This document shows positions 4,915-34,119 of a stretch of DNA of 34,119 nucleotides, in pieces. The translations under genes and the position numbers were made by a program. The stretch is from the NCBI RefSeq assembly GCF_000337355.1, contig NZ_AOJH01000055.1, positions 1 to 34,119 of the forward strand. The letters are read 5' to 3'. Position 1 is the stretch's first letter, and every line of letters begins with the position of its first letter. Below the pieces are notes generated by a model. That model was not told the DNA's origin and did no database searches. It saw only the letters and a list, made by a program, of their open reading frames with translations. This DNA is from Halorubrum kocurii JCM 14978. Its GTDB lineage: Archaea; Halobacteriota; Halobacteria; Halobacteriales; Haloferacaceae.

Positions 4915-5784
4915 ATGGCCGACGGCGACGATCGACAGGCGACGTTCGGGTCGGACGGGAGCTTGGAGACCGACACGACGCCGGACGCGACCGGCGAGAA
5001 CGACTTCGGCGAGGAGAAGGAGGCCAACGAGACCGACGGCGGCTACAGCCGGTACGTCGTCTCCAGCCTCCTCCAGAAGGCGGTGCGCCGCTCCGACGAG
5101 GAGGTCGCCGCGTGGGCCGCGTGGGAGCTGGCCCGCTCCGGCTACGCGTGGAACCTCTGGGACCGCCTGAACCTCTACGTCGTCGAGGACCTCCGCGCGG
5201 GCAGCGACGCGGCCCTCGCGATCGAGCGCTACGAGGAGCTCGCCACCGAGCGCTGGGAGCCTGCCGAGTGGAAAGGGCGGATCTGCGCGATCCACGCCGC
5301 GCTGGCGGCGACCCGCGCGCGCTCGACCCGGGAGGCCTCGAACGCCGACGCCTACTTCTCTGCCGTCGCCGAGGTCCGGGCCGAGGCCCGTGAACGCGGC
5401 GAGGAGCCCGCCCACGACTTCCCCGTCGGCGACCTCGAACCGGGGGGAACGTTCGACGCCGTCTTCGACGGCCACACCGGGGAGGGCGCGCGCCGCGACC
5501 GCGGCACGCGCTTTTTCAAGACCCACGGCGCTCGGGTCGGCCCGGAGGGCGAAGACGACCAGAGCGCCCGCTGGCAGCGTCTCGCCATGCTCCTCGACGA
5601 CGAGACCGACTACTCGGCGGCCGAGCTCGACCGGGCCGTCGAGCCGGTCGATCCCGAGGACCCGTGGGGCGAGCCGGCGACCGGCGCTAGAGGCGACACC
5701 GGGAACACCGGCGACGACGACACCGACAGCACCGATGAGAACGGTCCCGATCGCACCGGCTCGCTCACCGACTTCTCGGAGTAG
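4915..5784 (+). CDS. uncharacterised haloarchaeal protein with helical core
   Basis: 289 residues; I do not recognise a named family. The first 40 residues are acidic and disordered. Residues about 42-150 form a helical core beginning SRYVVSSLLQKAVRRSDEEVAAWAA, which recalls the helical C-terminal domain of MgsA/RarA-type AAA proteins (weak resemblance, inference); there is no ATPase part. The tail beyond residue 245 is low complexity (Gly, Asp, Thr). The start is supported by the TATA box ttcttaagt at 4884-4892, centred 27 bases upstream. It is transcribed divergently from tRNA-Tyr. There are no membrane segments. Confidence 0.8.
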   Translation: MADGDDRQATFGSDGSLETDTTPDATGENDFGEEKEANETDGGYSRYVVSSLLQKAVRRSDEEVAAWAAWELARSGYAWNLWDRLNLYVVEDLRAGSDAALAIERYEELATERWEPAEWKGRICAIHAALAATRARSTREASNADAYFSAVAEVRAEARERGEEPAHDFPVGDLEPGGTFDAVFDGHTGEGARRDRGTRFFKTHGARVGPEGEDDQSARWQRLAMLLDDETDYSAAELDRAVEPVDPEDPWGEPATGARGDTGNTGDDDTDSTDENGPDRTGSLTDFSE

Positions 5785-33165: not shown

Positions 33166-33179
33166 CCGAACGTGTTCGG
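33166..33179. promoter_or_regulatory. palindrome ccgaacgtgttcgg upstream of the DUF2249 gene
   Basis: A near-perfect 14-base inverted repeat (CGAA-N4-TTCG core), its centre about 46 bases before ATG 33219. The same motif with one base changed lies at 33889-33902, its centre about 44 bases before the ATG of the next gene. It resembles the palindrome reported before haloarchaeal denitrification and DMSO-reductase genes (from memory), so a NarO/DmsR-type activator is possible. Confidence 0.6.
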
Positions 33180-33218
33180 CTCAACACGAATTCGGACGGG
33201 CCCCGACCCTCCGATCGC

Positions 33219-33464
33219 ATGTCGAGACTCGACGTCCGCGAGATCCCGCCCGTGAACCGCCACGACAAGATACACGAGGAGTTCGACGGGATGGACCCGG
33301 GGGAGACGCTCACCATCGTCAACGACCACGAGCCGGAGCCCCTGTACTGCGAGATGGCGGCCGAGGTCCCCGCATTCGACGAGGAGGCGTACGAGGTGCG
33401 TCGGAACGCGCCAAACGAGTTCGTCGCGGAGTTCCCGAAGAGCGAAGAGCCGAAGAGCCAGTGA
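33219..33464 (+). CDS. DUF2249 domain protein
   Basis: 81 residues from ATG 33219. The pattern LDVREIPPVNRHDKIHEEFD, GETLTIVNDHEPEPL and the Tyr/Cys next to it (LYCEM) is DUF2249, a small TusA-like fold. Haloarchaeal members often lie near denitrification or nitrite-reductase genes. The ATG at 33219 is the natural start; an ATG at 33081 would read through the AT-rich promoter. The palindromic site before it suggests oxygen- or nitrate-linked control (inference). Confidence 0.85.
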   Translation: MSRLDVREIPPVNRHDKIHEEFDGMDPGETLTIVNDHEPEPLYCEMAAEVPAFDEEAYEVRRNAPNEFVAEFPKSEEPKSQ

Positions 33465-33561
33465 CCCGCGACTGAGGCCGCGGGCGTTCAGTCCGCCTCT
33501 CGGTGTGGGCGCCAGCGAGACGGCGGCGGCGCTTTTCCGGAGCGGCTACGGCTCACCGAGG

Positions 33562-33852
33562 TCAAAGAGCCGGCGGACCGCTCGCGGCCGAGCCCGCGCC
33601 GCCTCGCCGCTCTCGCTCCAGCGCCCGGTCCGGGGCGGCGGTCAGCCGCCCGACGAGGGCGGACCCGAGTTCCCGGACGGTCTCGCGCTGTTCGTCGGTG
33701 AGGTCGCCGCGCGCGTCGAGCGTCGTAACGGCCTCTTCGACCTCGCGCCGCTCGATCTCGGCCGTCCGACGGCGGAGGCGCCGCTGGAGGCGCTCCGGGT
33801 CGGGTGCGGTTCCGGGCCGGTCCGGAGAGGGGTCCGCCTGATCGGTGCTCAT
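33562..33852 (-). CDS. small protein resembling the C-terminal dimerisation region of glutamyl-tRNA reductase
   Basis: 96 residues from ATG 33852. The core RRRTAEIERREVEEAVTTLD, then LTDEQRETVRELGSALVGRL and TAAPDRALER, has the helical pattern of the HemA dimerisation domain (LAAPTxxLR end). There is no catalytic HemA part, so it is a stand-alone homologue, perhaps a helper for heme or nitrite-reductase function. The resemblance is by eye only. A TATA-like gagaatacgc (33878-33887) and the shared 14-bp palindrome precede it. Confidence 0.65.
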   Translation of the reverse strand: MSTDQADPSPDRPGTAPDPERLQRRLRRRTAEIERREVEEAVTTLDARGDLTDEQRETVRELGSALVGRLTAAPDRALERERRGGAGSAASGPPAL

Positions 33853-33888
33853 ACCCTCACCACCGCCTGCGACGGGGTGCGTATTCTC

Positions 33889-33902
33889 CCGAACGTATTC
33901 GG
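33889..33902. promoter_or_regulatory. palindrome ccgaacgtattcgg before the HemA-C-like gene
   Basis: Second copy of the motif at 33166-33179; with one flanking pair it becomes cccgaacgtattcggg. Its centre lies about 44 bases before the minus-strand ATG at 33852, just upstream of a TATA-like box. Confidence 0.6.
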
Positions 33903-34016
33903 GGTGACCGCGCGCTCGACTCGCCTCCGACCCGGTCGGTCGGTAGCGGGTTTCTGAGAGCAGGTTTCGGGGAGCGGGTTTCCGGGAGCGGATTTCAGCA
34001 GTTTTCGAGGCGGAGC

Positions 34017-34080
34017 CTCCGGCCTCAAGTAGCGAGGGGTTCCGACGCTCAGTCGGAAGCGCGACGCGAGTAGGCCGGAG
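34017..34080 (+). ncRNA. solo omegaRNA/right-end-like hairpin
   Basis: ctccggcct (34017-34025) pairs with aggccggag (34072-34080), nine pairs, with CTCAA after the left arm and GAGTAG before the right arm. An inner stem ttccgac/gtcggaa lies at 34040-34046 and 34052-34058. No transposase gene lies upstream on this strand, so it is a stand-alone or relic copy. The rest of 33903-34119 shows no gene. Confidence 0.55.
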
Positions 34081-34119
34081 AGGAAGCCGACACGAACTTT
34101 CGCAACCACTATGTTACAC

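Follow-up and report, generated by a model that had tools for sequence, protein, structure and literature searches.

Two copies of a palindromic box in Halorubrum kocurii JCM 14978 are probably operators of one haloarchaeal low-oxygen regulon, which would be centred on haem in this genome and would include a free-standing HemA tail that may act in trans. Both lie towards one end of contig NZ_AOJH01000055.1, all 34,119 nt of which were analysed (the window). Box CCGAACGTGTTCGG (33166–33179, no strand assigned) is the candidate operator of a DUF2249 gene with its ATG at 33219 on the plus strand, the gap from box to ATG being 39 nt. Box CCGAACGTATTCGG (33889–33902, no strand assigned), which reads CCGAATACGTTCGG towards its gene, is the candidate operator of the HemA-tail gene, whose ATG is at 33852 on the minus strand with a gap of 36 nt. 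The box centres are ~46 and ~43 nt before the ATGs, confirming both palindromes and their placing as given in the preliminary description of this DNA.

The form CCGAAN4TTCGG is found exactly twice in the window, against a mean of 0.11 in shuffled sequence, and at least two such sites arose in one of 100 window shuffles. The core CGAAN4TTCG is not rare, with 1.1 expected in the window and 164 sites genome-wide, and of the whole-genome sites for CGAAYNNRTTCG, 33 of 44 are intragenic. Since CGAA and TTCG are frequent in coding sequence and the genome's sites are mostly inside genes, a control using the reversed pattern (1 and 20 sites) overstates enrichment, and the motif count was rejected as proof. 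By itself the motif thus carries little weight, and it is position kept across relatives that decides. Other promoter-like sites in the same genome precede a ferredoxin-like gene, DnaK, a metallophosphoesterase-like gene and others, and may be there by chance. Two more boxes fall within a 21-nt tandem repeat on another contig (L172, 6648–6682 on C75), flanked by two genes named by eye, one halocyanin-like and one for a membrane protein.

Position was compared at 80 named DUF2249 loci, from Halorubrum, Natrinema, Haloferax, Halorussus, Natrialba, Haloarcula and others. An exact CGAAN4TTCG stands 37–40 nt before the ATG in 67 of these, and a one-mismatch box takes the same slot in a further 12; a single locus has none, leaving 79 of 80 with the box at fixed spacing. 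The genome's own site frequency predicts ~0.01 exact boxes in that slot, where 67 were observed. Such spacing, conserved across genera, contradicts the idea that a GC-rich genome produced the palindromes by chance or as coding-like background; a common, mostly intragenic core would be in keeping with that idea, to which we give almost no credence. Among 64 non-redundant DUF2249 promoters, information is concentrated in the palindrome, in AA at +4/+5 after the box, in A(T) at +11/+12 and in A at +28, and the remaining columns mostly hold little. The corresponding core promoter in the window (33180–33218, plus strand) has a BRE-like AA at 33183–33184 and AT at 33190–33191, both falling in columns conserved across the 64, and it has no strong TATA. 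We read this as a box followed by a putative BRE-like element and a weak TATA; transcription would begin at the ATG or close to it, making the DUF2249 transcript near-leaderless.

The HemA-tail gene was recognised at 19 Halorubrum loci, and the box is 36–37 nt before its start in 16 of them; the other three have no box immediately upstream of it. In the core promoter of this gene (33853–33888, minus strand) an AA occupies the same place after the box as in the DUF2249 promoter, and it is present in most Halorubrum loci. Matched placing had been taken as a sign that both genes answer to one regulator, and the fixed spacing at both sets of loci supports this at the level of sequence. Several Halorubrum have a truncated haemoglobin gene past the HemA-tail box, divergent from the HemA tail, and in those species the box may serve that gene too. 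The rest of the window (33903–34119) is the contig end, and it stops before any truncated haemoglobin gene.

Both palindromes match the published haloarchaeal anaerobic motif, CGAA-X4-TTCG or CGAAYATDKTYG, so the likeness to reported anaerobic-respiration promoters has been borne out as a match to CGAA-N4-TTCG. Mutation of the motif lowers the anaerobic activity of the nos and nor promoters of Hfx. mediterranei (PMC10062603), and in Hfx. volcanii the motif is reported to be indispensable for nirK and to occur upstream of ahbD (PMC5746218). Under denitrifying conditions expression goes up for each of the four Hfx. mediterranei DUF2249 genes, two of which are listed with the motif at their promoter (PMC11218638); control of DUF2249 genes by the box is therefore already known. 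The window boxes resemble the Haloferax NarO-type box of these three papers in being the same palindrome close upstream of a start, and its known targets likewise include DUF2249 and ahbD genes. They differ in standing 36–39 nt before the ATG, compared with 66–79 nt in Haloferax denitrification promoters, and in having as a target a stand-alone HemA tail, which is not mentioned in PMC10062603, PMC5746218 or PMC11218638.

Haem genes of this genome also have the box, as the suggestion of a haem link had anticipated. On contig C45 it precedes an operon in which an Htur_1727-family gene and a TIGR04347 gene, the latter encoding a pseudo-SAM/SPASM (AhbC-like) protein, are found; in the sequence (L170, 1238–2865) the Htur_1727-family gene, named as an 'rSAM-partnered candidate RiPP', is directly before the TIGR04347 gene. 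Sampling of 19 other Halorubrum genomes showed the box before this operon in 17. It is 62 nt from the start, a layout unlike that of the DUF2249 and HemA-tail boxes. The AhbD gene on contig C86 has GTGAACACGTTCGG 42 nt before its ATG, with one conserved mismatch to the box, and GAACACGTTCG is kept in all 20 of the AhbD promoters read. At two loci in other genomes (L262, G021:C10:27000–29900; L270 in G033), AhbD and the Htur_1727/AhbC-like operon run in divergent directions, with one box in common. No box was found around full-length hemA in the stretch examined.

The HTH_10 family has 23 matches among the proteins of this genome, and two of them carry CxCx7C, the pattern that NarO carries. One HTH_10 protein with CxCx7C is encoded beside the AhbC-like operon, both here and in 8 of 11 relatives; the other is directly upstream of a DMSO-reductase-like operon. 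The upstream activator sequence of Bat/bop in Halobacterium offers a parallel as the activator site of an HTH_10-family regulator near a basal promoter (cited in PMC3184054), and differs from the box in its sequence and its target genes. A NarO/DmsR-type HTH_10 regulator would most likely turn both window genes on at low oxygen. We picture it binding the box just upstream of BRE/TATA and recruiting basal factors to a weak promoter when oxygen is low, and the outcome would be near-leaderless mRNAs from both genes.

The same arrangement might instead mark a repressor site, occupied in air by a regulator that silences the two genes and vacated by it under other conditions. An operator adjoining BRE/TATA could block TFB/TBP, and the box of the AhbC-like operon, which in many species is downstream of a TATA-like stretch, would suit such a role. 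However, the promoters of the DUF2249 and HemA-tail genes lack a strong TATA of the kind that repression would have to counter, and mutating the same motif lowers anaerobic promoter activity in Hfx. mediterranei (PMC10062603), so we regard repression as improbable and keep to activation.

The preliminary description had also hinted at a nitrite-reductase link and proposed a genome search for the box at nirK, nar or dms genes. In this genome the link did not hold up. Unlike the Haloferax denitrification regulon, the genome of the window (a draft, 98.5% complete) yielded no nirK above the family cut-off and no qNor, and no extragenic box with one mismatch or fewer was found around the DMSO-reductase-like operon. 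This operon (L167, 4076–10289) is on C86, and a second HTH_10 gene is nearby. The nitrite-reductase link does hold in other haloarchaeal families, where the HemA tail is found in islands with DUF2249 genes, cupins and an AhbD-like radical SAM protein, along with a copper nitrite reductase-like protein, a quinol NO reductase, a BAT/HTH_10 regulator (its closest relative being only 41% identical) and several boxes. Outside Halorubrum the HemA tail is often behind a second DUF2249 gene that has the box at its start. Within Halorubrum its neighbours are KatG, a cupin and truncated haemoglobin, and in most members of the genus a KatG-type haem catalase-peroxidase (PF00141; 30819–32981, minus strand, in the window) adjoins the module.

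Within the genus the module co-occurs with nirK (p 4e-5) and with qNor (p 0.02), p values that ignore shared ancestry. This co-occurrence, the islands with nirK and qNor in other haloarchaea and the truncated haemoglobin adjoining the module in relatives all speak for a box that answers to nitrogen oxides and not to oxygen, both genes then being parts of denitrification or NO defence retained by a lineage that lost nirK and qNor or never acquired them. Against it, three genomes (G000, G264 and G275) keep the module and its boxes with neither nirK nor qNor detected, and the box stands before haem genes too. We consider a nitrogen-oxide response unlikely, and prefer a low-oxygen regulon that here would centre on oxygen-independent haem synthesis through the AhbC-like operon and AhbD.

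The DUF2249 protein (33219–33464, plus strand) has 81 aa and scores 76.8 bits against PF10006 (cut-off 29.5); no second DUF2249 was found in the genome. A structure model and fold search gave it a predicted TusA/SirA-like fold. Within the regulon it is probably a small sensor or relay of the signal, by analogy with the proposed nitrate sensor DrpA, a DUF2249 protein from Thermus thermophilus (PMC6282519). Like DrpA, it is a single small DUF2249 domain tied to anaerobic nitrogen respiration. DrpA, however, was detected in the periplasm and sits with nar and DrpB (PMC6282519), whereas the window protein has no nar neighbour.

The stand-alone HemA tail (33562–33852, minus strand) is a protein of 96 aa that corresponds to the dimerisation domain of glutamyl-tRNA reductase (GluTR); it is tail only, the open reading frame holding neither the catalytic nor the NADPH-binding domain of GluTR, and a full-length HemA is encoded elsewhere in the genome, on C43. 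The window protein scores 22.1 bits against PF00745, just below the cut-off of 22.9, and four homologues pass that cut-off. A PDB profile search matched the family profile to Arabidopsis GluTR, and a model of the H. saccharovorum orthologue aligned with 4yvq, the GluTR C-terminal region, at Z 10.6, with an rmsd of 1.8 across 82 residues, against Z 7.1 for the next unrelated row. Foldseek alone gave no E-value below 0.001 for the HemA-tail or the DUF2249 model, and the HemA-tail assignment is based on the sequence profiles together with aligner Z above that of unrelated helical rows. These results uphold the first reading of the gene as a HemA tail on its own, with the fold of the GluTR dimerisation domain predicted for it. 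Differences by codon position (0.25, 0.23 and 0.42) are consistent with selection acting on the gene. A tree of HemA tails and stand-alone tails, built from few informative columns, tends to place the two groups apart. Further stand-alone genes for the domain are at L064 (~5249–5464) and L077 (5773–6177), among genes that by eye resemble cobalamin-biosynthesis genes, which is another link to tetrapyrroles.

Relative to its Halorubrum orthologues, the window copy is frame-shifted near its end by a change of the one-base type. The last helix to be expected, RAVRRLFDLGEP (33546–33593, minus strand), is conserved in the orthologues and lies here in a different frame from the ORF. The frameshift is either a real indel or an error of the draft; with the last helix lost from the frame, this copy may therefore be impaired or mis-sequenced.

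GluTR carries out the first committed step of tetrapyrrole synthesis. The HemA tail would most likely act in trans on this enzyme by pairing with its dimerisation domain, and would in this way adjust ALA supply when the cell switches over to anaerobic haem synthesis by the Ahb route. Action in trans on HemA is proposed less firmly than the regulon itself. In plants, FLU represses GluTR by binding its C-terminal dimerisation domain (PMC4726326), which makes control through that domain plausible and proves nothing here. The window protein shares its predicted fold with the GluTR C-terminal region (4yvq, PMC4726326), the domain to which FLU binds. It differs from GluTR in standing alone, without catalytic and NADPH domains, and from FLU in being the GluTR domain itself and not a TPR protein. 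We offer only tentatively, as a possibility somewhat short of an even chance, the full proposal: low oxygen induces a GluTR dimerisation domain that stands by itself, this domain partners HemA in trans, and ALA/haem flux is thereby reset on the move to the Ahb pathway. If so, the domain would be an archaeal counterpart, by way of a different protein, of FLU/GBP control of GluTR in plants.

The box and its link to DUF2249 are already known, and the free-standing HemA tail appears to be a new member of the regulon. Our search of the open-access literature found no paper on stand-alone GluTR tails, no conserved box-controlled free-standing HemA tail and no haem-gene-centred box regulon in a genome where neither nirK nor qNor was detected. 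The proposed regulon would give an unstudied small family, the stand-alone GluTR dimerisation domain, a place together with DUF2249 in a defined low-oxygen response, whose other members in this genome serve oxygen-independent haem synthesis. The spacing rule is offered as a means of finding further members of the regulon in haloarchaeal genomes, and archaeal control of the first tetrapyrrole step would become testable in a genetically tractable group.
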